A DNA stretch of 64,000 nucleotides from Eutreptiella sp. 'Long Island Sound 2002' (lineage: Eukaryota; Euglenozoa; Euglenophyceae; Eutreptiales; Eutreptiaceae): NCBI GenBank assembly GCA_964036045.1, contig OZ038383.1, positions 38,301,294 through 38,365,293 of the forward strand, written 5' to 3'. The position numbers and the translations under genes are program-made. Shown in pieces: positions 1,130-52,851 of this stretch. Below the pieces are notes generated by a model that saw only the letters and a program-made list of their open reading frames with translations, searched no databases and was not told the origin of the DNA. How positions within the stretch are numbered: the first letter of the stretch is position 1; every line of letters starts with the position of its first letter.

Positions 1130-1165
1130 TGGGATGCAGCGTTCTAGGGCGTGGTGCGGAACCCC
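1130..1165 (+). repeat. Left 36-bp TIR of family 1 copy A
   Basis: Reads TGGGATGCAGCGTTCTAGGG and continues to ...GGAACCCC. It is the exact reverse complement of 8184-8219. The same end occurs at 33915 and 40727. Confidence 0.95.
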
Positions 1166-1315
1166 TAGTTAGAACGCAATTTCTGGAACACCCACCTACC
1201 CTCAATTTTGGGGCAAACCACCTAAAAAAATGGATTCAGCACCCTCAAAAACCCCCCATCCCCTTTCTTTCCCCACATAACCCGCATCATGGGGGTGGTT
1301 TTTGGGGGGGGGGTC

Positions 1316-1445
1316 AAAGAGTTAGAGCACAGTTAGAACAGAGTTAGAACGCAGTTAGAGCACCTTGCTCTAACTAGTTATCGCGCTAGTTATCGCGCGA
1401 TAACTCAGTTATCGCGCAGTTATCGCGGGTAGTTATCGCGCACCC
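1316..1445. repeat. Subterminal GTTAGAGC / GTTATCGCG word cluster
   Basis: About 130 bp of tandemly arranged GTTAGA(G/A)C and GTTATCGCG words just inside the left end, including the perfect palindrome GTTATCGCGCGATAAC. The orientation is mainly opposite to the other three clusters of the element, so the two ends carry inverted subterminal arrays. It lies downstream of the transposase stop. Possible transposase or regulator binding sites (inference). Confidence 0.8.
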
Positions 1446-1510
1446 CTCCTCCCTCCCTCCCTAGGACAAACAACACAAAACACTTGGCACAAAGCATCTG
1501 TGGTCGTTTT

Positions 1511-3169
1511 TCATACAAAGTCATCAATGTCTGAGGCCTTGGCTGCCTCCAGTCCCAAAAGCCCTTGCTCCAGGGCGTTCATGGACATGCAATGGTGCAT
1601 GTGGCGGAGGGACATACTTGGCCTCACCAAAGACCAACCCTTAAAACAATTTTTGAGCCTCCTCTTGTAAGGCCCATGCCGATACTCCGTTGGGATGGAG
1701 GAAAACTGAAAAATGTTCCTCCATTTCTCGGCAAAAAAGGTGGAATGTGCCAAGCACCAATGGATCCACCTGGTGGGGGACCAACCTGAGTCTCCCCACG
1801 CTTTTGAAAATTTTGTGGTCAACGCACGGTGGCGTTCCACTTGGGTTAGAGTGTACAACTCCCTCACCCTCCAAAGCTCATACAAACCCTCAATGCATTT
1901 CACCATGACATGCACAACAACCCATAACATAGGTCCCCCAGGGGTCCTCACTGTGGGGACATGCTCTTTGAGGCATTCCACAAATTGCCTTTGGAAGGGG
2001 GGGGAGGTTAGGAAAACTTTGGTGCTGGTTAGATCGAAATCTTTTTCTGTGGCCCTCGAGGCCGAAGGGAGGCGTTCCCTAAGAGGGATGCCTGCGGTCT
2101 CATCCTTGAGGGCTTGTTTGAAGGCCTGCAAAGCTGCAAGAGCTTGGGCCTTACCAGGGGTACTAGGGGGGAGGGCCTGGAGGGTGGTCTCAATGCGCTT
2201 TGCAATGCCGTTTAGGATGCGGCATGCTGCATGTTGGTAGTCCCCCGGCCGCCTATCAGGGGTCACACTTCTCAAGAATGACCCCCATCTTGAGGTGGAC
2301 TCCACCCCCATTTGCTCAACAATCCCATTGGGGTCTTTGCACAACCAACACTTAGACCCAGCCCCCCCCATTGCTTGCATCCCCTTCCCATCCCCTGTCA
2401 AAATGACAGTGCAAGTCAAAAATTGGTTTTGAAAGAGGACAACGTCCTCTTCCACATCCCTCACCTCTTGGTTGAGGTTGGCGGAGATGTCAAGGCTTCT
2501 CAAAAAAGCCTGTTCATCCCCGCCATCCATGCAAAACCATGAGGCCCATAGCTTCACCTTCGAAGCATATTTTGCCCCCCCCCATACATTAACCCATACA
2601 TCCGCACGGGTGGAGGATGCCTTCCACAAGGAAGTCGCATCAACTGAAATAACAATAATGGCAACGCCACTAGGGGGGGGTTTCCCAATAACTCGGGCCA
2701 TAGATATTGCATTTTGCACAATTGATTGCAAAGGCACATGGGCAGCTGCCCTATTGCGGCCTGTGGTAGACTTTACAATGGTGGTTTGGGGAAAGTAGGG
2801 CATGATCCGTTGCCGAACGGTCCTTAGGTCCCGTTGTGTGCAACGGCGGGGCATTCGCAAAAGGGCCCGTTGGGAGAGATGCATGCTGCATGCCATGCGT
2901 AGCATGCTCAGGGCCTCATGCTCCTGAGCTGTTAATGCAAGATGGCCGCCAAGTGGGCCAGACAGGGCAGTGCACGCCCCACCACTTAAACAAACTTCGC
3001 CTTTGGTGTTGGTGCCACACACGACGTCTGGGTCACCCAATAGAACTCGCACCAGCCGCTGAACCGCCTTCAAACGCCGCCGCCGGGCCTTGGGGCACTG
3101 CAGATCGGTGTACCGCCGCAGGTTGGCTGTGTTGAGAGCCCGCAGGGCCTCATTGACAGCATTGTCCAT
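1511..3169 (-). CDS. DDE-type transposase with C-x2-C insertion, 552 aa (family 1)
   Basis: Intact frame ending in TGA. The first ATG is at 3169; upstream codons of the same frame run into the repeat cluster and are probably intron. A splice acceptor-like CCCAG ends at 3185, 15 bases before the ATG, and the exon start GTCCTCTTAT is shared with the family 2 transposase. Candidate catalytic residues are D177 (context ISVDATSLW), D260 (TGDGKGM) and E495 (IPTEYRHG), with C274-W-L-C277 following the second Asp. The family 2 transposase shows the same order at D167, D243, C266/C269 and E497. A basic run KARRRRLK near residue 30 may bind DNA. The catalytic assignment rests on comparing the two families by eye. 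Confidence 0.75.
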   Translation of the reverse strand: MDNAVNEALRALNTANLRRYTDLQCPKARRRRLKAVQRLVRVLLGDPDVVCGTNTKGEVCLSGGACTALSGPLGGHLALTAQEHEALSMLRMACSMHLSQRALLRMPRRCTQRDLRTVRQRIMPYFPQTTIVKSTTGRNRAAAHVPLQSIVQNAISMARVIGKPPPSGVAIIVISVDATSLWKASSTRADVWVNVWGGAKYASKVKLWASWFCMDGGDEQAFLRSLDISANLNQEVRDVEEDVVLFQNQFLTCTVILTGDGKGMQAMGGAGSKCWLCKDPNGIVEQMGVESTSRWGSFLRSVTPDRRPGDYQHAACRILNGIAKRIETTLQALPPSTPGKAQALAALQAFKQALKDETAGIPLRERLPSASRATEKDFDLTSTKVFLTSPPFQRQFVECLKEHVPTVRTPGGPMLWVVVHVMVKCIEGLYELWRVRELYTLTQVERHRALTTKFSKAWGDSGWSPTRWIHWCLAHSTFFAEKWRNIFQFSSIPTEYRHGPYKRRLKNCFKGWSLVRPSMSLRHMHHCMSMNALEQGLLGLEAAKASDIDDFV

Positions 3170-3224
3170 GAAGAATAAGAGGACCTGGGCGCGAAATGAG
3201 GGAGGGTTTTGAAGCAAGGGCCCA

Positions 3225-3415
3225 AAAAACACACGCGATAACCCACGCGATAACCCCCGCGATAACTAGGTTATCGCGCGATAACCCCCGCGATAACCCC
3301 CCGCGATAACTAGTTAGAGCGCGATAACCCCCCGCGATAACTAGTTAGAGCACCCAGTTAGAGCGCGATAACCCCCGCGATAACTAGTTAGAGCAGGGGT
3401 TAGTGCGCACTAACT
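3225..3415. repeat. CGCGATAAC / CTAGTTAGAGC cluster upstream of transposase
   Basis: Dense array of CGCGATAAC words and CTAGTTAGAGC words abutting the transposase 5' end. A likely acceptor (CAG before 3184) follows it on the minus strand, so the array probably sits in an intron or leader. Confidence 0.8.
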
Positions 3416-3645: not shown

Positions 3646-4254
3646 TTAGAGGACCCTAAAACCCATGGACAGCAGCTGCTGCCGCCACACAGGCGTGCAG
3701 TGCAGAACCCCCCCCGCACTATAAAAAATCACGCTCCATCGCTCGCCCTCCCATGACAATGGAGCGTGTAGTGCCCTGGTGTTGAACAACACGGGGGCTT
3801 GGGGGGTGGCGGTGCATGCCCAACCCTCCACCGCCCTACCCTTGCACACACGGGTGTGCCGCTTTTTTTCCCTCAAGGAGGGATTCAGCAGGCCACCACT
3901 CTCCACCCAAAACTCACCCCCCGTGAAAGACCCCACACACACAATAAGCGCCATGGGCGCCCCATCCCGCAAATGGGAGTGGAGGCCCATGGTGTCCGTC
4001 CCTTGGGGGCGAACAATTTGGATGCTACACCATGTGAACCATGGTGGAGCATTGGAGGTGCAATACCCATTGAGGTCTGCTACCAAGGGGGTGAGGGCAG
4101 GCCTGAGGGTAGCAGCGGCCATGTGGGTCGCCCTAAAATTAGAGGGGTTGGGGTTTCCACTTCCCACGAGGCCAAAGTGGCACATGTCCACTTGGGCCCC
4201 ATATCGCTCCTCCCCACGAAAAATGCCCTTGGGCAACCCCCTGAGCAAATCCAC
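3646..4254 (-). CDS. Second 2OG-Fe(II) oxygenase-like ORF, TET/JBP-like (family 1 ORF2)
   Basis: About 200 codons with the core of a double-stranded beta-helix oxygenase. Using the 210-codon version of copies B and C for numbering, a first metal site lies around H92-S-H94-L-R-D97, then FTGGEFWVE (a strand seen in TET/JBP-type proteins), the distal H163 in TRALHAPLPWEG, and R172 in ERWSVIFYS for 2OxG binding. The His/Asp spacing is not the canonical H-x-D. The frame has no ATG for its first 23 codons and begins in frame directly after the UGA of the coiled-coil gene, so it may be made by readthrough. Copy A ends earlier (TAA) than copies B and C because its 3' spacer was rearranged. Proposed role: oxidation of modified bases; unproven. 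Confidence 0.6.
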   Translation of the reverse strand: MDLLRGLPKGIFRGEERYGAQVDMCHFGLVGSGNPNPSNFRATHMAAATLRPALTPLVADLNGYCTSNAPPWFTWCSIQIVRPQGTDTMGLHSHLRDGAPMALIVCVGSFTGGEFWVESGGLLNPSLREKKRHTRVCKGRAVEGWACTATPQAPVLFNTRALHAPLSWEGERWSVIFYSAGGVLHCTPVWRQQLLSMGFRVL

Positions 4255-4260
4255 TAGTCA
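4254..4260 (-). promoter_or_regulatory. UGA-CUAG stop context, candidate readthrough site
   Basis: On the minus strand the coiled-coil frame ends CAA TGA CTA G and the oxygenase 2 frame continues in the same phase. UGA followed by CUAG is the known high-efficiency readthrough context in animal genes and some RNA viruses. It is identical in copies B (37061) and C (48889). Confidence 0.5.
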
Positions 4261-5467
4261 TTGGCTCCCACTCCTACTCCCGCTACCCTGACTCTGCAAC
4301 CCTTGCAGCGCCAGCCCCTGCTGGGCCTGCTGCGCCCCGAAGGAGGCACAGAGGGTGGAGGTGAGGCTGCGCACCTGCGCCTCAGCCACCCCCAAGCGCT
4401 GCCCAAGGTCATCCCCCCTCCTCCGCTGCCCCTCCACCTCCACCCTAAGCTGGGCCACCTCCACCTCCGCCTTCCGCCTCCCCTCCTGGGCCTCCCTCAG
4501 GGCCTCCCTCATCGCCTCCACCTCCTCCCCCCTCTTGGCGGCCAGGTTGAGGGCCTGGTCCAGGGCACGCTGGGTGTTGCCCTGGGCCTTTTCGGCCTTT
4601 GCCAAGGCCGACCTGTGGTCGGCCGACCGACCCTTGGCCAGTGCGGCCTCGACCCCCGTGGCGGCCGCCTGCTCCACCAAAACCTGGCAAGCGTCCGTCA
4701 CGTGGGTGGCCACACTGGCCCCCAAGGCCTCCACGTCCAGGGCCTCATGGGGGGGCTGGGCTGCCGCCACCTTTGCCACCTTCGATGGCTTGGGGGAGGG
4801 CTTGGGGGCGGGGGTTTGGCCCTTACCCCTAAGGGGGGGGGGGGGCATCCGGCTCAACCACCACCACGTCTGGTCCCCGCTTCGTCTGGCCTTTTCCCGG
4901 CCTTCCCCCCTTGGGTGCATACTGCCGAACCCAATCGGCAGTGGCGTCCCCCACAGAAGGGGGGGGGTCATACCCACCAACCTGGTGGATGTCCCCCCCC
5001 CTGTGCAGCTTCTGCCACACTTCCCTCCCCGTATACTCCCCCTCCCACAAAAAACACACCCTCAAAAGGAAATAAGATTTCCTTTGGGGGGGGTCGCTCA
5101 TCCCAAACAAACACAAAAAAGCCGCAACCGTTTCCCCCTCTGCGGCTTGCGGCCACTTGGCCGTTTCCCCCCCAACCCACACATAGGAGGGGAGGGTGAG
5201 GTTGGTCTTCCTCTCCACCCCTGCCTCCTTCTCTGTGATGGTGACCTGCCGGTACCATCCCGTCCCCCCCATCCTGCAGGCCTCATCCCCAGGCTCCCCA
5301 AACCGCCACGACGCCCCCTCCGGCAGCCTCTTCTCCCCCTCCAGCTCCAACCGGGCCGCCACCGGCTTGGCGGGCCGTGCCCCCGCTGCTGCTGCCGCTC
5401 CGCCCGCTGCGTCGGCTGCCTGGGCGTCGTCCTTGACGAAGATGCGGGGCAGCTGCAAGATGGTGGC
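4258..5467 (-). pseudogene. Basic/coiled-coil exon, frameshifted in copy A
   Basis: Equivalent to the intact 402-codon exon of copy C (48889-50097). An N-terminal globular part contains LPSYVWVGGETAKW and GREVWQKLHRGGD. A Pro/Lys/Gly-rich linker follows, and then a heptad-rich helix (EEVEAMREALREAQEGRRKAE) ending in a Gly/Ser/Gln tail. In copy A the G run at 4833-4845 has 13 G against 12 in copy C, which shifts the frame at PDAPPP. This may be a real mutation or a homopolymer error. The exon starts at 5467 after a strong acceptor (pyrimidine tract then CAG); the codons before it are intron. Confidence 0.7.
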
Positions 5468-5709
5468 CTGAAAAAAACAAAAGAAACAAAAAAAAAACAC
5501 GCGATAACCCGCGCGATAACCCCCGCGATAACTAGGTTATCGCGCGATAACCCCCGCGATAACCCCCCGCGATAACCCCGCGATAACTAGTTAGAACGCG
5601 ATAACCTAGCGCGATAACTAGTTAGAGCACCTAGTTAGAACGCGATAACCTAGCGCGATAACTAGTTAGAGCAGGGGTTAGAGCAGGGTGTTGTGGGAGG
5701 TTTTCACAC
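5468..5709 (-). other. Predicted 242-bp intron filled with CGCGATAAC words
   Basis: Donor CAG|GTGTGA at 5709 and acceptor TTTTTTCAG|GCC ending at 5468, both phase 0. Splicing joins ...CPCHQ of oxygenase 1 to ATILQLPRIF of the coiled-coil exon without changing frame. The intron body is an array of CGCGATAAC, CTAGTTATCGCG and CTAGTTAGA(G/A)C words (about 5490-5690). Family 2 has an intron at the equivalent place. Confidence 0.7.
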
Positions 5710-7833
5710 CTGGTGACATGGACACATGCCTTGGCCCTCCTTCTTGGCGTCGTCCAGCACCAGGCCCAGCCTCCGCAGCCACACGAAGTCCGTGACGGCC
5801 GCATACTCCCCCACCTGCCGCCACTCCACCACCTGGGCCACCCCCTCCGCCTCAGGGGCCACCCTTGCCACTCCCCCATACAACCCCCTCCTCACCACCA
5901 AAATGGTGCCCGCCGGCACCTTCATCCCAACATGCCCTTGCAGGGTGGGCCAGGGCAGTGCCTCCCCATGGCACACCTTGGCCAAGGGGCACTGATCGGG
6001 GTGGCCTGCGACCGCCCCCGCCTCCTCATTAGTGAGGGGGGCAATCACCTCCCTCCCAACCCCCCACCCCGACAACAAAAAATGCCCTGTGGTTGTTCCC
6101 ACCGGGAGCAAGCACTGAGCAGATTGCTCAATGCTGACCCCATTGGGGTCCACCACCACCTCCTCCTCCTCCCCCCCCTCCACCTCCTCCCCCTCCTGGC
6201 ATGGCACACAAAGGCCATCTTTGTGGGCGGTGCACAAAATCAGCCGATTGCATCCGTAGCAATTGGCTACCACCTTCCCCCTACACCTAACCGCCCCATC
6301 ACACTGGACTGTCCTGGCCACCCGGCCACCAGGTGCCCCCAGCTGGGGCCTCTTAATGGACTGGGTCACGTGCAGGTTGGGGAATCGAAGATTCCCCCCC
6401 ACGGTAAGCTCAATGGCAAAAAATGCCATGAGGCGGGGGTGGGACACCCCCGTGGGGGAGGCCTTGGGAATCCCCGACCCCCTGTGGACATCAAGGGCAT
6501 TAAAAAAAAAGGCAGTGCCCCTCTTGAATGGCACAGCCCTCTCCACCCAAGGGTCAGGGAACCCCGAACTGCTGGAGGGCACAAAAAGAAAATGTGACCC
6601 ATCCTCCTCCTCATGATTATGGGTTAGCATAATAAGGCAATTGACAATCAATGTGCCTTCAGGAATGGTGTAGGGGGGGGCGTCGCGATGGAGGTGCTGG
6701 GGGGTGTGGTCATAGCTCGAAATTTCGGCCATGTCAAGGATGGTGCAGCTCCATCCAACCCCCCCCACCACAGTCTTCTTCGCCGTCTCAAGCACACGAT
6801 CTGCCACCCTTTTGAGGACTGGCAGATCATGGAGCTTGTGGGGGTTGTGCCTGTGGTGGTTGGCACCCCCATAGTTGCCGTACAATGTACGGCGGGTCCC
6901 AGAATCTTGGGGCCTGCCGACAATGGGGGGGTTCTCATTGAAAATGGGTGCCTTCTCTGAGAGAGGCACCCTATCCAAATCATCCAAAAGACTTTGGAGC
7001 TGCACAGCACTCAAAAAATCGTGTTCCAGGAGGTGGTTGACCACCAGCTTCCCCCCCACCGTGAGCACAAGGTCATTGGGGTCCCTATTAAAGGCCCCCA
7101 AGGGCTCGGCGGCAACCACCTCCTCCGCCTCCCCAATAAGGGGGGGTGTTGCCCCAAATGGAAAAAGAATCACCCCCTGCCCCGAAATAATGTTGGGAGT
7201 GGTGACCCCATACCACTCACGCTCCCACTCCCTTGTGGGGCAAAGGGAGTGCATGGGGAGCTTGTTTTCGGGGTCGTCAGTGCAGACCCGGCGGGTGTTG
7301 TGGGTGAGGGGTTGGGGGAACCAACCATCCGACTGCCCCTTCCCCTTACCCGGTCGGATCCTTACCTTCTGGACACTAATCATGAGGGGGTTGTGGGGCT
7401 TCTCCTTCCTCCCCCCAGCCCCCACCCCCCCCGCATCCTCCTCCTCCTCCTCCACTTCCTCCACTTCCTCCTCCTCCTGACCCACATAGAGGGTCGTCTT
7501 CGTCCCCGCACCCTTCTCGGCATGGGCGGTGACGGACTCCACCACCGCGTCCACATCGTCCGGATGAAGCTGGATCAAAAATCCAGCAACCCCTGGATTT
7601 ACCTCTAGCAACTCGAAGATGTAGTTGCTGAGAACCAGGGGGTCTCGGTCGTCCGCCATGAAGGGGGACTTATGGACAAGGAGTCCAAAGTCCACACCAT
7701 GTTCAAAGCGGGTCGCCACAGGGCGCCTCACATTGGCATCACCCATCGTAAACCCCTCAGGACCGCCAAGGCGACGGACCCCAAGGAGCTTTTGATGGTG
7801 CTCGCACCAAGCGTGGGCAGCAGCAAGGGCCAT
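5710..7833 (-). CDS. 2OG-Fe(II) oxygenase 1 with Cys-rich C-terminal region (family 1, exon of 708 codons)
   Basis: The first real ATG is at 7833 (ATGGCCCTTGCTG); two further codons upstream are non-ATG. The oxygenase core lies mid-protein: H382-R-D384 (context QHLHRDAPPY), a long insert, distal H450 (ALDVHRGSGIP) and R467 (HPRLMAFFAIEL), a complete HxD...H...R set like phytanoyl-CoA-dioxygenase-type folds. An acidic Glu run lies near residue 120. After the core comes a Cys-rich segment (CDGAVRC...CYGC...CVPC) that could bind zinc. The exon ends at 5710, where a donor continues into the coiled-coil exon. The substrate is unknown; DNA or RNA is suggested only by the transposon context. Intact in copies A and C, gutted in B. 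Confidence 0.75.
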
Positions 7834-8045
7834 TATCAAAGAATACGAAGGCTTTGAGAGCTAAAGCGAAAAGGGGAAACATAAAATGAAGCGCGATAAC
7901 CCACGCGATAACCCACGCGATAACTAGTTATCGCGCGATAACCCCCGCGATAACCCCCGCGATAACTAGGTTATCGCGCGATAACCCACGCGATAACTAG
8001 TGCTCTAACCCCGTTCTAACCCCGCGATAACTAGTTAGAGCACAC
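7834..8045 (-). promoter_or_regulatory. Leader region of oxygenase 1: splice acceptor plus CGCGATAAC cluster
   Basis: An acceptor-like CCCTTTTCGCTTTAG ends at 7861 and the next exon begins CTCTCAAAGCC, 28 bases before the ATG. Family 2 has TTACAG|CTCTCAAAGCC before its oxygenase ATG. Upstream, 7891-8045, is another CGCGATAAC/CTAGTTAGAGC array, probably in a leader intron. No TATA box recognised. Confidence 0.55.
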
Positions 8046-13135: not shown

Positions 13136-13183
13136 GGAGACTCAGCCTGGCACAGGCATTGTGGTTTAAAGGAGTGGGGGCCC

Positions 13184-37057: not shown

Positions 37058-37060
37058 TAG

Positions 37061-42974: not shown

Positions 42975-43122
42975 CCGAAGTTTTCCATAAAAACTGAGGT
43001 TTTGGGGGGGGGGGGGGGTACAGTGGCAGTGGCAGTGGCAGAGACTGAGGCTGACCGCCCCCCCCCCCCCTGTGCTTCCCAGTTGATGCTTTTCTTCTGA
43101 CTGTGCTTTCGGGGGGACTACT
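42975..43122 (+). repeat. Split direct repeat A1
   Basis: CGAAGTTTTCCATAAAAACT... through a G run, a (CAGTGG)n stretch, a C run and TGATGCTTTTCTTCTGACTG to GGGGGGACTACT. It matches A2 at 47749-47892; gag starts just after it. Confidence 0.9.
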
Positions 43123-43125
43123 ACC

Positions 43126-44343
43126 ATGCCGGGGGATACATCGAATGGGTCATCGGACGCGGCTGGTGGGGAGAGCCGGGGGGCAAAGCGGGCCAGGCTG
43201 GCTTTCAACCGGGACGACATGGACCTGGACCCCGTCAAGACCCCCGAGTACGCACGCTGGGAGCGGTGGCGAGATCACGCTGCGGCTACCGCGTACGGGT
43301 TCCTGGAAAGCGCGGAGGCCGGCATCATGGCTGCCCGGTACCAGGAGCGGCTGATGGAGGATGGCCTATCCGTGGCGGGCGTTGATCGAGCGGTGGAGTG
43401 GGCCGGCGGCGGGCTGGACGCCCCGACGGCCCTCATATACATGGCCCTCTTTGAGCGATCCACGGACCTGCGGCTCGACGTTGAGGCGGCTGCTTGGAAG
43501 GCGGTGCCGCAGCCCAGCCCGCCTGCCCGGGAGCAGGCAGAGGAGACGCCAAAAGACCAGCCGCATGAGCCGCAGGAGTCCCCGGAGCAGGCGGAGATAC
43601 GACGGCTGGAGGCTCGCATCCGGGAGCTCCAGCTACCAAAGGTACCACCCCTATCCGAGGGAGAACTAGCCAAGATAACCGCGGGGCAACTTCCCTGGCT
43701 CTGGCAGCAGGAGCTCGTCCAGGCCCTGAGCACCTGGCTCAAAGCGGAAGACCCCGTTGGGAGGGGCAATGCGGTTGTGGAAGCGGTGTGGAAGGTGGTC
43801 TACAGGGACTGCCAGCCTACGCCCACCCACCCGGCTGGGGCGGCGGCGCGGCCGGCGCCACAGGGGTGGTTCGCCCAGGCCCAGCAGCCTACGCCGAGTC
43901 AGACCCAGGCGCAGACCCAGGCGCAGACCCAGACTCAGGCGCCGGCTCAGGCGCAGGCCCCGGCCCCTGCCCCCCCTGGGGCATGCTTCCGCTGTGGCAT
44001 GCACGGACACTGGGCCAGGGACTGTGCCAGTGGTACCCAGGGGCGGGCCCCCTCAGTCGCCGGTTCCGTCGCGGGCTCGTACCGGGGGGGGTTCAGTACC
44101 GTGGGTAGCCAGAGCCTGTACACAGCGCACAGCACGGGCCGCACCTATGACGCGACTGGACCCCCCCCGTACCCATGTTTTCGGTGTGGCCGCAACCACT
44201 GGGCCGTGGGCGGGCCGTGCCCGGCGCCGCCTGCCCAGGCCCCCCAGCCCTTTCCGGCCGGGCCGGCCCCAGCGCCGGCCAGCTGCCGAGGATCCTGGCC
44301 CCAGCGCCAGGGATGGGCCCGCCGACGAGGGGGGCGCCAATGA
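43126..44343 (+). CDS. gag: DIRS-like gag with zinc knuckles, 405 aa
   Basis: ATG 43126 directly behind A1. Helical N-terminal half, a Gln/Thr/Ala-Pro repeat linker, then a CCHC knuckle CFRCGMHGHWARDC at about residue 289 and a second, variant Cys/His cluster CFRCGRNHWAVGGPC near residue 349. This is a nucleic-acid-binding Gag. It ends at TGA 44341; the next ORF is in the +1 frame. Confidence 0.8.
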   Translation: MPGDTSNGSSDAAGGESRGAKRARLAFNRDDMDLDPVKTPEYARWERWRDHAAATAYGFLESAEAGIMAARYQERLMEDGLSVAGVDRAVEWAGGGLDAPTALIYMALFERSTDLRLDVEAAAWKAVPQPSPPAREQAEETPKDQPHEPQESPEQAEIRRLEARIRELQLPKVPPLSEGELAKITAGQLPWLWQQELVQALSTWLKAEDPVGRGNAVVEAVWKVVYRDCQPTPTHPAGAAARPAPQGWFAQAQQPTPSQTQAQTQAQTQTQAPAQAQAPAPAPPGACFRCGMHGHWARDCASGTQGRAPSVAGSVAGSYRGGFSTVGSQSLYTAHSTGRTYDATGPPPYPCFRCGRNHWAVGGPCPAPPAQAPQPFPAGPAPAPASCRGSWPQRQGWARRRGGRQ

Positions 44344-45847
44344 CGAGGGGGGCGGGGCACTCGGCCTCCGATACGCGGGGTCGGCAGTGGACAGCCTATG
44401 GTGGGGCAACTACATGGAGGAGCCCCTCGCGCTGGCCATCCGGCGGTGGTCCCCTGGAACCGTGGAGCGGTGGACAGCAATCCTCAGGGATGTGGGCCGA
44501 TTCGCGGCGCACTGGCCCGAGCTGGACGCGGCGGGGGCACTGTCCCAGTACCTCGTCCGACGCGCCGCCATGGGCCAGCAGCCTGGGACACTGCGAGGCG
44601 TCATATCAGCCCTTCGCCTGGCGGAGAAGCTGGGATGCATACGACCCACGGTGCGGCCCGTGCACTGGCTCATGGCACGAGGTGCCGCCACCACCACTGC
44701 CGCGCCACGACCCACCCAAGTATGGGCCGAGCTGGTCACCCTCCGACTCATGGCCCGGAGCATCAGGACCACCCTCGACTGGTTGTGCCTGGGCCTTGCC
44801 GTCATCTCCTTCGCCACTCTCCTTAGGGTGGGTGAAGCAGCCAGCATACGGCCCGTGGACTTGCGAAAGCGGTGCGTGCTGGGGTTCTTCGACGACAAGA
44901 AGGACGACGACTGGGTCACGGTACGGCTGGGAGCGTGGCCCGAAGCATGGCGCGCGGCGATGGCAGCCCACCCGTGGGTGTCCAGCAGGCCCGCGTCAGT
45001 GCCGCTTATGGCTGCCGCGTTCGACCTCCAGGCGGCGATCCATGGCTTGCTGGCTGCCACGGGGTGGGAATCCATGGGGTGGCACGCGTGGAGACGCGGG
45101 GGAGCTGCGGCCATGCGGGCGTTCGGCGCGGCCGTCGCCAGCATCGCGGTGGCTGGCCGATGGGACAACGAAGCGGAGGCGCACAGGTATGCCAGCGCGC
45201 CCCCTGGATGGGAGTTCTTCCTGCCCGACAACGTGCCCTGGCCAACGCCGGGATTTGGGGTCGAGATCCGGCCGGTCCACGCGTACCAGCTCTGGGCGCT
45301 CGGCACGCTTGGGCCCCGCGGCCCCGACGGGACGGACGCCGCCCCTGCCCCACCCGATGTCCGCGCTGGGAACCATGGCGGCCAAGGGACCGGCCTGCGT
45401 GGCGATTCCGACATGCAGGAGACCATCATACTGGGCTCCTCCAGTGACGAGTCGCCCGGCACGGTGGCACGCAGGGCCGCCAGACACCCCCGCGAAGGCC
45501 AGCGCAAGGCCTACGTGCACCGAACCGTGGCCCGCGGCCGGTCGGCACCCGCAGCGCGGGCACCGCGGGCTGAGCCCGCCCCAAAGCCCCGGGCCAAGCA
45601 GGCCGCAAATGGAGCGGCCGACCGCCGAACCGCAGCCCCCCGTTCCGCGGCTGTGCCCCGAGTCACGCCAGCGAGGGCGAGCACCAGAGGCACCCAGGCA
45701 CCCGGCGGGGCGCCGGCGAGACGGCGCAGCGGAGCGGCTGGAGATGCAGCTGGCAGTTGCCCGGTGCGCCAGGTGCGGCCTCGACTGGAACGACCACCTG
45801 GAGGCGGCGGCGCACCACATGGGGCGCAGCCTGAAGGCCCCTGCTGA
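44344..45847 (+). CDS. Tyrosine recombinase of the DIRS-like element
   Basis: Open in the +1 frame relative to gag, with no clear ATG at the start (frameshift, splice or internal start). Core-binding helices first (SPGTVERWTAILRDVGRFAA), then the catalytic set: R in ATLLRVGEAAS, H-x-x-R in GWHAWRRGGAA, and Y in EAHRYASAP, the nucleophile. After the catalytic domain comes a long Arg/Ala/Pro-rich tail to TGA 45845. It would integrate circular DNA without target duplication, in agreement with the flanks. Confidence 0.8.
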
Positions 45848-47628
45848 CAATGTCCTGCCCCTCTTGCAGGCGTGGTGGGCGGAGTCCATCAAGTGGGCTG
45901 TGGATCGCCCGGCGTGGAAGGAGAGGGCAGCGGCCGCGGACCTGGCGCTGGCGGAGGAGGCGCTGCACCTCCTGGCGGGGGGCGAGATCCCGCTCGATGG
46001 GGGCTCCTCGACCCGCCTGAACGACCAGTCGCGCGTCACTGTGGAGCTCGCGGCGCGTGGGCTGGGGGACGCGGGGCGCGTACAAGTCCCGCCGCACGTC
46101 TGGAAGGACTGGGCTGACCCGGAGTTTGGCAGGGCGGGGGGGCGTGTCCACCCCCTCCCCCCCTCCCGCTGCCCACGGGTGGCAGCCCTCCTCTCTACCC
46201 TCGCGTCCCAGGGCCTGGTCAGCGTGGTGGGGGGGGATGCGAATGCGGAGGTTTTCGTCAAGTGGAAATCAGAGCGCAAATGCGCCCTGATTGTGAACAT
46301 GAAGATGTTCAACCGGGGATGCAAGTACAAGGCCCGTCCCTTCAAGCTGCCGTCGCTGGAAGGCCTGGCCATCCTCCTCAGGGACCTGGGGGGTAGGGTG
46401 GGTGGGGCAGGGGGGGGGGGGCTGTGGGGCACCAAGCTGGACATAGCTAACTGCTATTGGAGTGTGGAGCTCCCCCCCCCCCCTGGCAAACACCATCCGG
46501 GTGGCGGCCCAGGGGCACACTTATGCTTTTCTGCGGGTGCCTTTTGGTTGGCACCAGGCGCCTGGGCTGGTCCAGGCCCTTATTTCCGACCTGCTACGGG
46601 ACCTGGGGAAGGGGGGGGTGGTGGTGGTACAGTACCTGGACGACATCCTTTTCGTCGGTTATGATCCAGGGGAGGTGACCACTGTCACCGACAGTGCGGC
46701 ACGCCTCCTGCGACAGGCGGGCTTCCTCATCAGTGACAAGTCCGTCTTCACGCCGCAGCGCTCCTTGCGATGGATGGGTAAGGATGTGGACCTTGCAGGG
46801 TGCAGGGTGGCGCCGGCGGCATCGGCGGTGGCGGCGGTGGTGGCGGCATGGGTGAAGCTGGCCCTCAGGCCATACACCTATGTCGCCCTGAGGCGGCTAC
46901 TAGGGAAGATAGGGTGGTTGGGTCGCCCAGGGAACCTGGGGGGGTGCTTTCTGGCGGGTGCCCGGTCATGGCTGCGTTGGGGCCCGCGCTGGGCCTGGCG
47001 CACACCGGCGGCAGTGGTGCGCGGTCTCTGCGAAGCCATAGCCCAGTGCTACCGGGGCTGGGAGCCGGACACCACCGCAGGGGGGCCAGCAGTGCGCGTG
47101 TTTGTGGACGCGGCCAGGTGTGCCCTTACCACGGGGAATGACCCGTCCTACTGCGTCGGCTCCTGGGGACCGGGGGGGGCGGATCTGTCGCTGTGCCCGG
47201 CGTGGGTGACCACGCAGCAGGCGGCTGAGCTGTGGGGGACGCTGGTGGCGCTGGACGATGCGCAGGCGCGACGAGCGCGGCGCCTGGTGCTCGTGGGGGA
47301 CAACATGGGGGCGCTGGCCCAGCTCCTTTGGGGGAGGGCGGGGGCAGGCAAGGTCCAGCAGCAGCGCATACTGCGGAGGATAGCCCACCGCCTCCGCTGG
47401 ACGGGACTGCAGCTGACCCTCTGCTGGGTACAGTCCGCACTAAATCCAGCGGACTCTATCAGCCGAGCATGGGACGGGAGGGGGGGCAGGGCAGCAGTGA
47501 TCGAGGCGGCGGCCAAAGAGCGCCTGTGGGTGAGCTCGCCGCAATGGGCAGCGTGGGGGGCTATTGCAGACCGCGACAAGGCGGTGCGACCGTGCACGGT
47601 CCCCCTTCCTGTCTGGTTGGGGGGATGA
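45700..47628 (+). pseudogene. DIRS-like reverse transcriptase-RNase H, frame break in a C run
   Basis: RT fingers/palm in one frame (VKWKSERKCALIVNMKMFN; TKLDIANCYWSVELP), then a frame change at the C run 46472-46483, then YAFLRVPFGWHQAPG, catalytic QYLDDILFVG, and RNase H with VFVDAARCAL, TTQQAAELWG, LVGDNMGAL and ALNPADSISRAWD, the DIRS/pararetrovirus-like ending. Stop TGA 47626. It overlaps the end of the YR frame. With one base removed or added in the C run the gene is continuous, so this may be a sequencing slip. Confidence 0.85.
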
Positions 47629-47644
47629 CAGTCAAAAATCTTAT

Positions 47645-47749
47645 CCCAGGGGGCCTGCAAATACAGTAGCTGTCCATGTCCAGTGCGCAGTGCAGAGGGG
47701 TGCAGGGCAGTGCAGGGCGGTGCAGGGCAGGGCGTGCACATGCCAAAAC
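47645..47749 (+). repeat. Split direct repeat B1
   Basis: CCAGGGGGCCTGCAAATACA... with four GTGCAGGGCA-like units to CACATGCCAAAAC; matches 47959-48064. Confidence 0.9.
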
Positions 47750-47892
47750 CGAAGTTTTCCATAAAAACTGAGGTTTTGGGGGGGGGGGGTACAGTGGCAG
47801 TGGCAGTGGCAGAGACTGAGGCTGACCGCCCCCCCCCCCCTGTGCTTCCCAGTTGATGCTTTTCTTCTGACTGTGCTTTCGGGGGGACTACT
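47749..47892 (+). repeat. Split direct repeat A2
   Basis: Second copy of A1, directly joined to B1; the B1/A2 joint CAAAACCGAAG has the structure expected at the circle junction of PAT-like elements. Confidence 0.9.
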
Positions 47893-47958
47893 CGCCCGGG
47901 AGGTGTTGGACTACGCACTATGTGGCGCTATAAGCGCGGCCAGAGGCCTTCATCGTGC

Positions 47959-48064
47959 CCCCAGGGGGCCTGCAAATACAGTAGCTGTCCATGTCCAGTG
48001 CGCAGTGCAGAGGGGTGCAGGGCAGTGCAGGGCGGTGCAGGGCAGGGCGTGCACATGCCAAAAC
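47959..48064 (+). repeat. Split direct repeat B2
   Basis: Right end of the element; its terminal CAAAAC meets the copy C target sequence TTCACAAACG. Confidence 0.9.
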
Positions 48065-48252: not shown

Positions 48253-48885
48253 CTAGCTGGAGGGGTTAGAGGAAGCATTGGGCACCCTAAAACCCATGGA
48301 CAGCAGCTGCTGCCGCCACACAGGCGTGCAGTGCAGAACCCCCCCCGCACTATAAAAAATCACGCTCCATCGCTCGCCCTCCCATGGCAATGGAGCGTGT
48401 AGTGCCCTGGTGTTGAACAACACCGGGGCTTGGGGGGTGGCGGTGCATGCCCAACCCTCCACCGCCCTACCCTTGCACACACGGGTGTGCCGCTTTTTTT
48501 CCCTCAAGGAGGGATTCAGCAGGCCACCACTCTCCACCCAAAACTCACCCCCCGTGAAAGACCCCACACACACAATAAGCGCCATGGGCGCCCCATCCCG
48601 CAAATGGGAGTGGAGGCCCATGGTGTCCGTCCCTTGGGGGCGAACAATTTGGATGCTACACCATGTGAACCATGGTGGAGCATTGGAGGTGCAATACCCA
48701 TTGAGGTCTGCTACCAAGGGGGTGAGGGCAGGCCTGAGGGTAGCAGCGGCCATGTGGGTCGCCCTAAAATTAGAGGGGTTGGGGTTTCCACTTCCCACGA
48801 GGCCAAAGTGGCACATGTCCACTTGGGCCCCATATCGCTCCTCCCCACGAAAAATGCCCTTGGGCAACCCCTTGAGCAAATCCAC
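48253..48885 (-). CDS. Oxygenase 2-like ORF, copy C
   Basis: 210 codons with H92-S-H94-L-R-D97, TGGEFWVE, H163 and R172. No ATG until codon 24; in phase behind UGA-CUAG at 48885-48891. It ends at TAG and, three codons later, TGA. See the copy A entry for the assignment. Confidence 0.6.
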   Translation of the reverse strand: MDLLKGLPKGIFRGEERYGAQVDMCHFGLVGSGNPNPSNFRATHMAAATLRPALTPLVADLNGYCTSNAPPWFTWCSIQIVRPQGTDTMGLHSHLRDGAPMALIVCVGSFTGGEFWVESGGLLNPSLREKKRHTRVCKGRAVEGWACTATPQAPVLFNTRALHAPLPWEGERWSVIFYSAGGVLHCTPVWRQQLLSMGFRVPNASSNPSS

Positions 48886-48888
48886 TAG

Positions 48889-50097
48889 TCATTGGCTCCC
48901 ACTCCTACTCCCGCTACCCTGACTCTGCAACCCTTGCGGCGCCAGCCCCTGCTGGGCCTGCTGCGCCCCGAAGGAGGCACAGAGGGTGGAGGTGAGGCTG
49001 CGCACCTGCGCCTCAGCCACCCCCAAGCGCTGCCCAAGGTCATCCCCCCTCCTCCGCTGCCCCTCCACCTCCACCCTAAGCTGGGCCACCTCCACCTCCG
49101 CCTTCCGCCTCCCCTCCTGGGCCTCCCTCAGGGCCTCCCTCATCGCCTCCACCTCCTCCCCCCTCTTGGCGGCCAGGTTGAGGGCCTGGTCCAGGGCACG
49201 CTGGGTGTTGCCCTGGGCCTTTTCGGCCTTTGCCAAGGCCGACTTGTGGTCGGCCGACCGACCCTTGGCCAGTGCGGCCTCGACCCCCGTGGCGGCCGCC
49301 TGCTCCACCAAAACCTGGCAAGCGTCCGTCACGTGGGTGGCCACACTGGCCCCCAAGGCCTCCACGTCCAGGGCCTCATGGGGGGGCTGGGCTGCCGCCA
49401 CCTTTGCCACCTTCGATGGCTTGGGGGAGGGCTTGGGGGCGGGGGTTTGGCCCTTACCCCTAAGGGGGGGGGGGGCATCCGGCTCAACCACCACCACGTC
49501 TGGTCCCCGCTTCGTCTGGCCTTTTCCCGGCCTTCCCCCCTTGGGTGCATACTGCCGAACCCAATCGGCAGTGGCGTCCACCACAGAAGGGGGGGGGTCA
49601 TACCCACCAACCTGGTGGATGTCCCCCCCCCTGTGCAGCTTCTGCCACACTTCCCTCCCCGTATACTCCCCCTCCCACAAAAAACACACCCTCAAAAGGA
49701 AATAAGATTTCCTTTGGGGGGGGTCGCTCATCCCAAACAAACACAAAAAAGCCGCAACCGTTTCCCCCTCTGCGGCTTGCGGCCACTTGGCCGTTTCCCC
49801 CCCAACCCACACATAGGAGGGGAGGGTGAGGTTGGTCTTCCTCTCCACCCCCCCCTCCTTCTCTGTGATGGTGACCTGCCGGTACCATCCCGTCCCCACC
49901 ATCCTGCAGGCCTCATCCCCAGGCTCCCCAAACCGCCACGACGCCCCCTCCGGCAGCCTCTTCTCCCCCTCCAGCTCCAACCGGGCCGCCACCGGCTTGG
50001 CGGGCCGTGCCCCCGCTGCTGCTGCCGCTCCGCCTGCTGCGTCGGCTGCCTGGGCGTCGTCCTTGACGAAGATGCGGGGCAGCTGCAAGATGGTAGC
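48889..50097 (-). CDS. Basic/coiled-coil exon, intact, 402 codons (copy C)
   Basis: Reference version of this exon. Residues 1-190: a globular part with LELEGEKRLPEGASWRF, LPSYVWVGGETAKWP and VVDATADWVRQYAPK. Residues 190-240: a Lys/Pro/Gly-rich, probably disordered linker with basic patches. Residues 270-375: Ala/Glu/Arg-rich heptads typical of a coiled coil, so the protein probably oligomerises. Ends SGSRSGSQ before UGA-CUAG. Spliced to oxygenase 1 it gives a protein of about 1,110 residues, close to the ~1,140 of family 2. Function unknown. Confidence 0.7.
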   Translation of the reverse strand, partial: ATILQLPRIFVKDDAQAADAAGGAAAAAGARPAKPVAARLELEGEKRLPEGASWRFGEPGDEACRMVGTGWYRQVTITEKEGGVERKTNLTLPSYVWVGGETAKWPQAAEGETVAAFLCLFGMSDPPQRKSYFLLRVCFLWEGEYTGREVWQKLHRGGDIHQVGGYDPPPSVVDATADWVRQYAPKGGRPGKGQTKRGPDVVVVEPDAPPPLRGKGQTPAPKPSPKPSKVAKVAAAQPPHEALDVEALGASVATHVTDACQVLVEQAAATGVEAALAKGRSADHKSALAKAEKAQGNTQRALDQALNLAAKRGEEVEAMREALREAQEGRRKAEVEVAQLRVEVEGQRRRGDDLGQRLGVAEAQVRSLTSTLCASFGAQQAQQGLAPQGLQSQGSGSRSGSQ

Positions 50098-50339
50098 CTG
50101 AAAAAAACAAAAGAAACAAAAAAAAAACACGCGATAACCCGCGCGATAACCCCCGCGATAACTAGGTTATCGCGCGATAACCCCCGCGATAACCCCCCGC
50201 GATAACCCCGCGATAACTAGTTAGAACGCGATAACCTAGCGCGATAACTAGTTAGAGCACCTAGTTAGAACGCGATAACCTAGCGCGATAACTAGTTAGA
50301 GCAGGGGTTAGAGCAGGGTGTTGTGGGAAGTTTTCACAC
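50098..50339 (-). other. Predicted intron with CGCGATAAC array, copy C
   Basis: Same donor, acceptor and phase as 5468-5709 in copy A. Confidence 0.7.
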
Positions 50340-52463
50340 CTGGTGACATGGACACATGCCTTGGCCCTCCTTCTTGGCGTCGTCCAGCACCAGGCCCAGC
50401 CTCCGCAGCCACACGAAGTCCGTGACGGCCGCATACTCCCCCACCTGCCGCCACTCCACCACCTGGGCCACCCCTTCCTGCTCAGGGGCCACCCTTGCCA
50501 CTCCCCCATACAACCCCCTCCTCACCACCAAAATGGTGCCTGCCGGCACCTTCATCCCAACATGCCCTTGCAAGGTGGGCCAGGGCAGTGCCTCCCCATG
50601 GCACACCTTGGCCAAGGGGCACTGATCGGGGTGGCCTGCGACCGCCCCCGCCTCCTCATTAGTGAGGGGGGCAATCACCTCCCTCCCAACCCCCCACCCC
50701 GACAACAAAAAATGCCCGGTGGTTGTTCCCACCGGGAGCAAGCACTGAGCAGATTGCTCAATGCTGACCCCATTGGGGTCCACCACCACCTCCTCCTCCT
50801 CCCCCCCCTCCACCTCCTCCCCCTCCTGGCATGGCACACAAAGGCCATCTTTGTGGGCGGTGCACAAAATCAGCCGATTGCATCCGTAGCAATTGGCTAC
50901 CACCTTCCCCCTACACCTAACCGCCCCATCACACTGGACTGTCCTGGCCACCCGGCCAGCAGGTGCCCCCAGCTGGGGCCTCTTAATGGACTGGGTCACG
51001 TGCAGGTTGGGGAATCGAAGATTCCCCCCCACGGTAAGCTCAATGGCAAAAAATGCCATGAGGCGGGGGTGGGACACCCCCGTGGGGGAGGCCTTGGGAA
51101 TCCCCGACCCCCTGTGGACATCAAGGGCATTAAAAAAAAAGGCAGTGCCCCTCTTGAATGGCACAGCCCTCTCCACCCAAGGGTCAGGGAACCCCGAACT
51201 GCTGGAGGGCACAGAAAGAAAATGTGACCCATCCTCCTCCTCATGATTATGGGTTAGCATAATAAGGCAATTGACAATCAATGTGCCTTCAGGAATGGTG
51301 TAGGGGGGGGCGTCGCGATGGAGGTGCTGGGGGGTGTGGTCATAGCTCGAAATTTCGGCCATGTCAAGGATGGTGCAGCTCCATCCAACCCCCCCCACCA
51401 CAGTCTTCTTCGCCGTCTCAAGCACACGATCTGCCACCCTTTTGAGGACTGGCAGATCATGGAGCTTGTGGGGGTTGTGCCTGTGGTGGTTGGCACCCCC
51501 ATAGTTGCCATACAATGTACGGCGGGTCCCAGAATCTTGGGGCCTGCCGACAATGGGGGGGTTCTCATTGAAAATGGGTGCCTTCTCTGAGAGAGGCACC
51601 CTATCCAAATCATCCAAAAGACTTTGGAGCTGCACATCACTCAAAAAATCGTGCTCCAGGAGGTGGTTGACCACCAGCTTCCCCCCCACCGTGAGCGCAA
51701 GGTCATTGGGGTCCCTATTAAAGGCCCCCAAGGGCTCGGCGGCAACCACCTCCTCCGCCTCCCCAATAAGGGGGGGTGTTGCCCCAAATGGAAAAAGAAT
51801 CACCCCCTGCCCCGAAATAATGTTGGGAGTGGTGACCCCATACCACTCACGCTCCCACTCCCTTGTGGGGCAAAGGGAGTGCATGGGGAGCTTGTTTTCG
51901 GGGTTGTCAGTGCAGACCCGGCGGGTGTTGTGGGTGAGGGGTTGGGGGAACCAACCATCCGACTGCCCCTTCCCCTTACCCGGTCGGATCCTTACCTTCT
52001 GGACACTAATCATGAGGGGGTTGTGGGGCTTCTCCTTCCTCCCCCCAGCCCCCACCCCCCCCGCATCCTCCTCCTCCTCCTCCACTTCCTCCACTTCCTC
52101 CTCCTCCTGACCCACATAGAGGGTCGTCTTCGTCCCCGCACCCTTCTCGGCATGGGCGGTGACGGACTCCACCACCGCGTCCACATCGTCCGGATGAAGC
52201 TGGATCAAAAATCCAGCAACCCCTGGATTTACCTCTAGCAACTCGAAGATGTAGTTGCTGAGAACCAGGGGGTCTCGGTCGTCCGCCATGAAGGGGGACT
52301 TATGGACAAGGAGTCCAAAGTCCACACCATGTTCAAAGCGGGTCGCCACAGGGCGCCTCACATTGGCATCACCCATCGTAAACCCCTCAGGACCGCCAAG
52401 GCGACGGACCCCAAGGAGCTTTTGATGGTGCTCGCACCAAGCGTGGGCAGCAGCAAGGGCCAT
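50340..52463 (-). CDS. 2OG-Fe(II) oxygenase 1, copy C (708 codons)
   Basis: ATG 52463 after the acceptor CGCTTTAG. All oxygenase residues described for copy A (H382, D384, H450, R467) and the Cys-rich C-terminal segment are conserved. It differs from copy A by only a handful of residues, so both copies are young or both are constrained. Confidence 0.75.
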
Positions 52464-52851
52464 TATCAAAGAATACGAAGGCTTTGAGAGCTAAAGCGAA
52501 AAGGGGAAACATAAAATGAAGCGCGATAACCCACGCGATAACCCACGCGATAACTAGTTATCGCGCGATAACCCCCGCGATAACCCCCGCGATAACTAGG
52601 TTATCGCGCGATAACCCACGCGATAACTAGTGCTCTAACCCCGTTCTAACCCCGCGATAACTAGTTAGAGCACACAAAGATCAAATCGCAAAAAGTGCAA
52701 AACGGGCAATATCGAGCAAACAAAACATGGAAGGCACATTGTTGCATCATAGTGCACCCATGTAACATGTGAAATTCCGGGTTCCAACCATATTAACAAC
52801 ACCCAAAATTGGGGGGGTTCCGCACCACGCCCTAGAACGCTGCATCCCATA

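Follow-up and report, generated by a model that had tools for sequence, protein, structure and literature searches.

A DNA transposon family of Eutreptiella with a putative 2OG-Fe(II) oxygenase and further accessory genes beside its transposase

Introduction

Why would a DNA transposon carry oxygenase-like genes beside its transposase, and does this association hold beyond the locus at which it was noticed? In a 64,000-nucleotide stretch of contig OZ038383.1 of Eutreptiella sp. 'Long Island Sound 2002' (the window), a sequence-only reading had recognised three related elements, each said to encode a DDE transposase, a 2OG-Fe(II) oxygenase (oxygenase 1), a coiled-coil protein and a second, TET/JBP-like oxygenase (ORF 2). 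The principle of a dioxygenase-carrying DNA transposon is already known from fungi, in which TET+ DNA transposons fall into 11 lineages including Kyakuja, Zisupton, Dileera, EnSpm and Plavaka (Kojima 2025, PMC12730594, cited throughout from the accessible part of its text).

Results

The three copies lie on the reverse strand exactly where the sequence-only reading had placed them (1130-8219, 33915-38897 and 40727-52849) and are bounded by perfect 36-bp terminal inverted repeats (TIRs) with the termini TGGG..CCCA. The target-site duplications (TSDs) that it had reported were borne out: they measure 2 bp, may be any dinucleotide and are present in 32 of the 35 TIR pairs checked, namely in the three window copies (TG, TG and TA, read by eye), in 20 of 20 pairs of one further set and in 9 of 12 pairs of a second, to which all three pairs with no TSD found belong. 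The family thus has the terminal inverted repeats and the constant-length TSD that define TIR DNA transposons. A genome-wide search for the TIR (2.28 Gb, up to 3 mismatches allowed), which had been proposed as a check, returned 2,913 ends (1484 + 1429) as compared to 0 for the control, and the copy number exceeds one thousand in this very large genome. The full-length element comprises about 7.1 kb. It had been reasoned that the association would be accidental if copies elsewhere lacked the genes; in all 11 full-length copies examined the four coding regions are present on the same strand and in the order described before (oxygenase 1, coiled-coil gene, ORF 2, transposase), and it is among internally deleted copies, many of which retain intact ends, that some of the four genes are missing. 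The evidence is firm that this is a DNA transposon family that carries accessory genes. The window copies fall short of the full gene set attributed to each of them: the coiled-coil gene of copy 1, oxygenase 1 of copy 2 and the transposase of copy 3 are defective. In an automatic check, one of the 11 full-length copies, L034, had all four genes open.

Copy 1 (7,090 bp, TIRs at 1130-1165 and 8184-8219, flanks ..ATATG and TGATG..) is full-length. Its oxygenase 1 ORF (5704..7833, 709 aa) is preceded by a repeat block at 7892..8001 with GTTATCGCG and GCTCTAAC motifs, delimited by blast self-matches and by where and how often the motifs occur in sister copies. A second block upstream of the coiled-coil gene (5490..5681; self-matches, splice-like strings) lies within a candidate intron. 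The coiled-coil gene itself (4258..5467) carries a frameshift, which leaves 212 of its roughly 402 codons in an open frame, and ends with TGA (4258-4260) followed by CTAG; ORF 2 (3646..4257, 203 codons) continues in the frame of its end, with the first in-frame ATG at the 25th codon past the stop. A third block (3224..3403) precedes the transposase gene (1511..3169, 552 aa). Copy 2 (4,983 bp) is internally deleted and lacks the segment for the catalytic domain of oxygenase 1; it retains ORF 2 (36425..37057) and a transposase ORF of 513 aa from GTG (34296..35837), the first part of that gene lying outside the open frame. Copy 3 (12,123 bp) is a full-length transposon of about 7.0 kb split by a nested retroelement of about 5.1 kb. 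Oxygenase 1 (50334..52463) is open, as is the coiled-coil gene (48889..50130), a 413-codon ORF which includes a polypyrimidine tract and ends in TGA-CTAG; ORF 2 (48253..48888) follows in frame behind the TGA, and the transposase frame (41107..42767) is broken, being open for 205 codons. The retroelement (approximately 42919..48059, forward strand) has inserted into the repeat block that separates ORF 2 from the transposase and matches RVT_1, a reverse transcriptase family, at E 1.6e-9. A tyrosine-recombinase-like ORF was also seen in it by eye. All other genes of the three copies lie on the reverse strand.

In oxygenase 1 the motif HxD...H...R is complete and in order (H382, D384, H450, R467), and a Cys-rich cluster follows at about residues 509-546; some old relatives have lost the motif, e.g., HLRREA in P0047. 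The Pfam matches to PhyH (E=0.011, 16.4 bits, cut-off 22) and 2OG-FeII_Oxy_3 (E=0.078, 14.4 bits, cut-off 27) are sub-threshold, and of the 15 members searched 3 and 4, respectively, show them at E<=1; Tet_JBP is absent among the matches, and the relatives P0044 and P0047 gave no Pfam match at E<=10. For the 231-residue segment that surrounds the motif, the AlphaFold prediction (pLDDT 31.2) was too low in confidence to judge whether a double-stranded beta-helix is present. Identification as a 2OG-Fe(II) oxygenase is thus plausible, the complete motif speaking for it and the matches below the curated cut-offs against it, and we consider it moderately supported by these sequence features.

The case of ORF 2 is different. 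Its frame is open for 200-212 codons in all 11 full-length copies, and in copy 3, counted from the GTG at 48885, it contains LHSHLRD at 91, GSFTGGEFW at 108 and ALHAPLPWEGERWSVIFY at 161. The motif HxD...H...R is incomplete in it: where HxD is expected copy 3 reads HSH. Aligned relatives mostly have HAH or HSH, although others occur, for example HAD in P0130. ORF 2 had no Pfam match at E<=10, and 20 relatives searched at E<=1 yielded one match in one member, to an unrelated family. When ORF 2 was aligned by hhalign with one Tet_JBP protein, its score was equalled or exceeded by 145 of 200 shuffles, and across the entire assembly Tet_JBP found a single match, on a foreign-looking contig. The AlphaFold model (pLDDT 31.6) was again too low in confidence to judge the presence of a double-stranded beta-helix. 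The description as TET/JBP-like accordingly lacks statistical support.

The transposase shows the motif order D, D, C(2)C, H(4)H, E. In copy 1 these are D177, D260, C274/277, H470/475 and E495 (P0002 numbering), and P0034, which is 38% identical to P0002, keeps the series (D196, D281, C296/299, H491/496, E516) with the same H-to-E step of 20; the D/D/E assignment denotes positions conserved between these two sequences only. No Pfam family was found for P0034, P0002 and P0027 at E<=10, nor, at E<=1, for any of the 8 members of the alignment. The designation as DDE transposase is therefore backed by order and spacing kept in one relative, but not by a family match. The same motifs characterise the CMCT clade (EnSpm/Plavaka/Transib), whose termini are CA..TG "in most cases" (PMC12730594). 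The 2-bp TSD lies within the 2-5 bp of that clade; the termini TGGG..CCCA do not conform to CA..TG, and no profile of a CMCT member family was matched in Pfam or among PDB sequences. Searches of PDB sequences with oxygenase 1, ORF 2 and transposase returned nothing save one unrelated hit at E=1, and none of the four proteins had a Pfam or NCBIfam match above cut-off; DndD/SMC models matched the coiled-coil protein far below their cut-offs.

A new observation is that repeat blocks of one kind stand ahead of three of the four genes, i.e., oxygenase 1, the coiled-coil gene and the transposase, and not ahead of ORF 2. The GTTATCGCG/GCTCTAAC blocks also occur inside both element ends, and all 103 window occurrences of the repeat 9-mer fall within the elements. 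We see moderate support for the prediction that the transposase binds these blocks.

Among the 11 full-length copies, the fraction of variable sites that change an amino acid was 0.58 for oxygenase 1 (p 0.002), 0.47 for ORF 2 (p 0.02) and 0.62 for the transposase (p 0.0003), as compared to 0.74 expected. Leaving out the badly aligned copy L031 changed these p values to 0.008, 0.054 and 7e-6, respectively. Oxygenase 1 and the transposase thus have a lower share of amino-acid changes than expected, ORF 2 is borderline, and the coiled-coil gene showed no significant constraint (p 0.15 to 0.47). C>T changes were found at 27 of 648 CpG sites and at 58 of 3457 sites elsewhere; since this excess is mild and most singleton changes (195 of 334) come from one old copy, it falls short of evidence for methylation of the element.

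Discussion

The ends, the TSDs, the abundance, the constant gene set of the full-length copies examined and the reduced amino-acid change in oxygenase 1 and the transposase, which is borderline in ORF 2, are direct observations. The reading that we give an even chance is that of a recently active cut-and-paste family with a CMCT-like DDE transposase, which took up accessory genes, of which at least some have remained under selection. The extra genes may help the element to resist silencing: oxygenase 1 could conceivably be tethered to the element via its Cys-rich cluster, the coiled-coil protein or both and might there oxidise a silencing mark, be it a modified base or a histone, whereby the element would stay expressed, as has been proposed for fungal TET+ transposons (PMC12730594). 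A farther-reaching version, which we consider unlikely, is a lineage outside the described families with an epigenetic-escape apparatus of its own, in which a non-TET/JBP 2OG oxygenase is joined by a coiled-coil targeting protein and leakage at UGA-CUAG gives a fixed-ratio minority form with a second, divergent oxygenase-like domain. Similarly improbable in our view is that the accessory genes serve transposition or regulation instead of the removal of DNA marks, e.g., with the coiled-coil protein as a cofactor and a hydroxylase that modifies the transposase protein. The placement of the repeat blocks, as in an autoregulated element, and the weak matches of oxygenase 1 to general 2OG families would agree with this, whereas a protein substrate for oxygenase 1 is conjectural and described transposon-borne dioxygenases are read, as a proposal, as acting on DNA (PMC12730594). 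The weakest candidate, with a low probability, holds that a single capture from the host brought in oxygenase 1 and ORF 2, which were then amplified as hitch-hikers without function for the element. Because many internally deleted copies have intact ends, the genes are dispensable in cis; for the coiled-coil gene constraint is not significant, and for ORF 2 it is borderline once L031 is left out. Against mere passengers speak the reduced amino-acid change in oxygenase 1, albeit from 10-11 copies only, and the clusters formed at 90% protein identity, two for oxygenase 1 (220 and 491 members) and one for ORF 2 (235).

That ORF 2 lies in frame directly behind TGA-CTAG, a tested readthrough motif (PMC4132726), is likewise new. 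All 36 distinct places examined that span the junction have TGA, 35 of them also have CTAG, and the seven nucleotides match exactly those of the readthrough genes OPRL1, OPRK1, AQP4 and MAPK10; the known cases are vertebrate genes and some viruses (PMC4132726), while the present one is predicted from sequence. Readthrough would thus, with moderate support, append ORF 2 to the C terminus of the coiled-coil protein. It is doubtful, although a serious possibility, that the UGA is a true stop and ORF 2 no enzyme, the downstream frame being a relic or expressed by re-initiation. HSH in place of HxD, the lack of a family match, the hhalign score at shuffle level and an ATG overlapping the stop (AATGA), albeit in a different frame, favour this; the invariably open frame, its borderline constraint and the matched motif do not, nor do older relatives, in which the sequence ahead of the first ATG of ORF 2 is still recognisable, or four relatives that have sense codons at the stop position and hence one fused coiled-coil/ORF 2 frame. 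To a comparable, tentative degree, oxygenase 1 and the coiled-coil protein might be one spliced product, giving a long oxygenase-coiled-coil-(ORF 2) polyprotein beside the transposase. The candidate phase 0 intron (about 5709 to 5468 in copy 1) would run from CACCAG/GTGTGA at the end of oxygenase 1 to TTTTTTTCAG/GCC (TTTCAG/GCC at the junction). The junction is in frame, the coiled-coil gene start has no in-frame ATG nearby, and the donor string is present in 11 of 11 full-length copies; the acceptor string is exact in 5 and inexact in 6 of them, and the would-be intron holds a repeat block like those before the other two genes, which a separate promoter would explain at least equally well.

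The closest precedent for this family are the fungal TET+ transposons, which share with it a dioxygenase gene beside the transposase and a proposed escape from silencing (PMC12730594). Their enzymes are of the TET/JBP type with HxD or HxE, in contrast to the weakly PhyH/2OG-FeII_Oxy_3-like oxygenase 1 and the HSH of ORF 2, and the accessible text makes no mention of a coiled-coil gene with readthrough such as predicted here (PMC12730594). The earlier view that no described element has this gene set therefore needs narrowing: transposons with dioxygenases had been described in fungi, while this gene set and this transposase were not found in that text (PMC12730594). If the preferred reading is true, oxygenase-bearing DNA transposons arose with a different oxygenase and transposase lineage than the fungal elements, and escape from base-modification silencing would be a recurrent strategy and no fungal peculiarity. 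Since the family is young and abundant, the unproven idea that oxygenases aid such escape becomes directly testable, and the family may supply an oxygenase acting on a mark not yet known.

Among the fungal lineages, Plavaka, some families of which carry a TET/JBP gene, resembles the present elements in its 2-bp TSDs (PlavakaA; 2 or 3 bp in PlavakaB) and in that its second D and last E enclose C(2)C and H(3-4)H motifs, but has the termini TGT..ACA or CATCA..TGATG (PMC12730594); Pfam gave no family-level sequence match between the two. EnSpm/CACTA, Transib and RAG1 of the CMCT clade have the same motif order (PMC12730594). The family described here differs from them in having neither CACTA ends nor a Pfam transposase match. 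The spacing of its motifs is presumably comparable to that in RAG1.

Ends, Copies and Gene Set of the Transposon

Identical terminal inverted repeats (TIRs) of 36 bp bound the three elements of the window at 1130-8219, 33915-38897 and 40727-52849 (copies 1, 2 and 3). The family is a DNA transposon of the cut-and-paste type, and its target site duplications (TSDs) measure 2 bp. In the host genome assembly (2.28 Gb in 2,205 contigs, the largest among the contigs seen being 201 Mb), 1,484 forward and 1,429 reverse TIR ends with at most three mismatches were detected, as compared to none for a control pattern, which bears out the TIR-bounded three-copy family described in the sequence-only reading. 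Both ends were present in 32 of 33 genomic regions fetched; the second fetched set comprised 13 regions and yielded 12 pairs, L050 being left out as its second end lies beyond the 10-kb stretch. The 2-bp TSD was found in 32 of 35 TIR pairs (20/20 and 9/12 in the fetched sets and 3/3 for the window copies, which were read by eye) and was absent in three of the 12 pairs of the second set; in every matching pair the match was exactly 2 bp at its longest, with varied composition. Identity with Zisupton or Kyakuja was rejected because the TSDs of these are 8 and 7 bp, respectively, in the sections covered of PMC12730594.

Short copies with internal deletions and both ends retained (about 1.0 to 6.5 kb) are common among the 32 fetched pairs, two of which enclose longer DNA of 8.0 and 9.7 kb. 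The full-length copies studied (n = 11; two from the window and nine fetched) show 96.9-99.8% identity to copy 1 where aligned and carry on a single strand, from first to last, oxygenase 1 (708-711 codons in copies with an open frame), the coiled-coil gene (402 codons where open, counted from a splice-like acceptor to TGA), ORF 2 (200-212 codons) and the transposase gene (552 codons where open). At least one frame is broken in most of them, and all four are open in the full-length copy L034 according to an automatic frame check. It had been considered that copies elsewhere might lack these genes, their association then being accidental; this was rejected, since the four coding regions were found in 11 of 11 full-length copies. 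In several proteins (P0001, P0007, P0012, P0013 and others), parts of oxygenase 1 are linked to parts of the transposase; true fusion genes were rejected here because internally deleted copies account better for these proteins. Copy 3 contains about 5.1 kb of extra DNA with a reverse transcriptase within the repeat block between ORF 2 and the transposase gene, and this nested retroelement (42919-48059), with overlapping ORFs for the reverse transcriptase and a tyrosine-recombinase-like protein (by eye), is possibly DIRS-like. A PHROGs search returned only weak matches, for the coiled-coil protein alone, and nothing was found by tblastn of the transposase against phages or by searching viral contigs with oxygenase 1, ORF 2 and transposase.

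Oxygenase 1 and Transposase

Oxygenase 1 displays H382, D384, H450 and R467, that is, the H, D, H, R order usual in 2OG-Fe(II) oxygenases, followed downstream by a Cys-rich stretch at about residues 509-546. The 2OG-Fe(II) oxygenase of the sequence-only reading thus stands as regards its motif, whereas the Pfam matches to PhyH (E 0.011, residues 272-452) and 2OG-FeII_Oxy_3 (E 0.078, residues 372-453) lie below the cut-off. Among 15 aligned members at E<=1, three matched PhyH, four 2OG-FeII_Oxy_3 and one each six other families, and P0044 (97% identical) had no Pfam match at E<=10. PDB sequence searches with oxygenase 1, ORF 2 and transposase returned a single match, which was unrelated (E=1). 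For the transposon as a whole, the strongest doubts arise from the absent family matches and from the low-confidence AlphaFold models, namely pLDDT 31.2 for the oxygenase 1 domain (alignment of 11 sequences) and 31.6 for ORF 2 (alignment of 20 sequences). We consider it quite probable that oxygenase 1 is an oxygenase.

The transposase had no match in Pfam, NCBIfam or PDB. Its relative P0034, from another source, shows 38% identity over 94%, and D, D, C(2)C, H(4)H and E are shared at near-constant spacing (D177-D260-C274/C277-H470/H475-E495 in the transposase and D196-D281-C296/C299-H491/H496-E516 in P0034), so that the proposed DDE transposase is supported by its motif and not by a family match. 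The 20-residue step from H to E is the same in RAG1. For the CMCT clade, the sections covered of Kojima (PMC12730594) describe C(2)C and H(3-4)H motifs located after the second D and before the last E, as well as TSDs of 2-5 bp. Motif order and the 2-bp TSD are alike here, whereas the transposon ends are not CA..TG. By its motif the transposase may be called CMCT-like; since it lacks a profile match and the ends are not CA..TG, it is not assigned to a named superfamily.

Variable sites among the 11 full-length copies were compared with and without L031, an old copy that is poorly aligned in the transposase gene. Amino-acid changes were below expectation in oxygenase 1 (44 nonsynonymous/32 synonymous, p 0.002; without L031 31/23, p 0.008), in the transposase gene (110/67, p 0.0003; without L031 19/26, p 7e-6) and in ORF 2 (7/8, p 0.02; without L031 7/7, p 0.054, which is borderline), and no significant deficit was detected in the coiled-coil gene (33/16, p 0.23; without L031 20/12, p 0.15). 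These tests span 709-711 codons of oxygenase 1, while an earlier one spanned 568 codons because the reference copy was frameshifted. The share of variable sites was 4.7% in the spacers, 3.6% in oxygenase 1, 2.5% in ORF 2 and 10.7% in the transposase gene, the last value being due to the inclusion of L031. Pairwise ratios with L031 included were 0.37, 0.53, 0.38 and 0.32, the coiled-coil value being taken along the frameshifted copy 1. Judged from these few, related copies, the active lineage seems to have retained at least oxygenase 1 and the transposase gene.

ORF 2, Possible Readthrough and Candidate Splicing

ORF 2 begins directly after the stop codon of the coiled-coil gene with the frame unchanged (CAA TGA CTAG TGG). 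This junction was found in 37 of 64 sequences (L002-L062 and the three window copies), and since L018 is window copy 3 these represent 36 distinct places, 20 of them picked by similarity to the ORF 2 of the window; TGA is conserved in 36/36 and CTAG in 35/36. In a separate set, 150 of 4,274 candidates were scored and each had TGA, which says little on its age because all were close copies (97-100%). According to the sections covered of PMC4132726, UGA-CUAG has experimental support as a readthrough motif in four mammalian genes and is also present in some viruses. Past the stop, no in-frame ATG occurs in ORF 2 before the 25th codon, which is one, and the residues ahead of it are recognisable in older relatives, e.g., P0107; a single change falls within the first 23 codons across the 11 copies, too little variation for a test. 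A sense codon replaces the stop in four relatives, R in P0079, P0083 and P0140 and W in P0152, a pattern compatible with a decayed TGA as well as with CGA as the ancestral codon. Because the frame is continuous in these four, sequence comparison suggests that the coiled-coil protein and ORF 2 form, or once formed, a single protein. In P0156, unrelated sequence precedes ORF 2.

The repeat blocks, clusters of GTTATCGCG/GCTCTAAC motifs, consist of GTTATCGCG and G(C/T)TCTAAC repeats and are about 88-97% alike over 64-195 bp. In L034 those upstream of oxygenase 1, the coiled-coil gene and the transposase gene contain 9, 11 and 10 GTTATCGCG, and an inverted block on the internal side of the opposite transposon end contains 4. 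All 103 occurrences of the 9-mer in the window (both strands) fall within the three elements. Both transposase-binding sites and promoters may well reside in these blocks, and the fact that ORF 2 has none of its own is in line with ORF 2 as an extension. As an alternative to three separate mRNAs, oxygenase 1 might be spliced in frame to the coiled-coil gene: a donor-like CACCAG/GTGTGA is present in 11/11 copies, the acceptor-like TTTTTTTCAG/GCCACC being exact in 5/11. The ORF 2-transposase spacer includes 33-36 nt that run antisense to coding sequence of oxygenase 1 (the pair 3550-3585 and 6961-6996), a possible source of self-pairing or small RNA.

The sequence-only reading had labeled ORF 2 TET/JBP-like, and this label was rejected: ORF 2 had no Pfam match, its alignment had none in the PDB, hhalign against one Tet_JBP protein gave no signal (145 of 200 shuffles were as good), and HSH is read at the expected HxD, relatives having mostly HAH or HSH. 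By eye, we take GSFTGGEFW and ALHAPLPWEGERWSVIFY of ORF 2 to resemble later strands of TET/JBP-type enzymes.

Possible Role of Oxygenase 1

By analogy to the TET+ transposons of fungi, for which de-silencing is itself a proposal in the sections covered of PMC12730594, we propose that oxygenase 1 most likely acts on a silencing mark of the element, which it would remove or alter. C>T changes at CpG were mildly in excess (27/648 vs 58/3,457 other sites, with 195 of 334 singleton changes coming from L031), which fits some CpG methylation of the copies, short of proof. Marks besides 5mC are possible targets as well, since 5-hmU is enriched over repeats in a dinoflagellate in the sections covered of PMC11071213, the host not being known as a dinoflagellate. 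The principle of a dioxygenase-bearing transposon is already known from the fungal TET+ elements; the claim that no element with this gene set had been described is narrowed accordingly, as gene set and transposase lineage were not found in the literature covered, namely that on KDZ transposons, on transposons and dioxygenases in dinoflagellates, on the Euglena genome and on readthrough motifs.

Other Features of the Assembly and the Window

The sole Tet_JBP match in the assembly (L001, G000:C2034:17743-21165) lies on a 49-kb contig that looks foreign to the host, because the fetched stretch is AT-rich and has a histidine-kinase-like ORF (by eye). A small contig (L063, G000:C40:1-1500), whose fetched part has a GC of 0.65 and a CpG o/e of 1.4, is possibly bacterial. 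No rRNA was found by an Rfam search of the window and 1.5-kb stretches of 20 other contigs. In the window, inverted repeats of AATTCGTACG units at 54122-56394 cluster around a 703-codon ORF with no Pfam match at E<=0.1, a retroelement at 12233-19206 has ORFs for aspartyl protease, reverse transcriptase and integrase (Pfam gag-asp_proteas, RVT_1 and rve), and a tandem array with a 65-bp period, comprising no fewer than 110 units, lies inside overlapping long open frames at 20136-27346.
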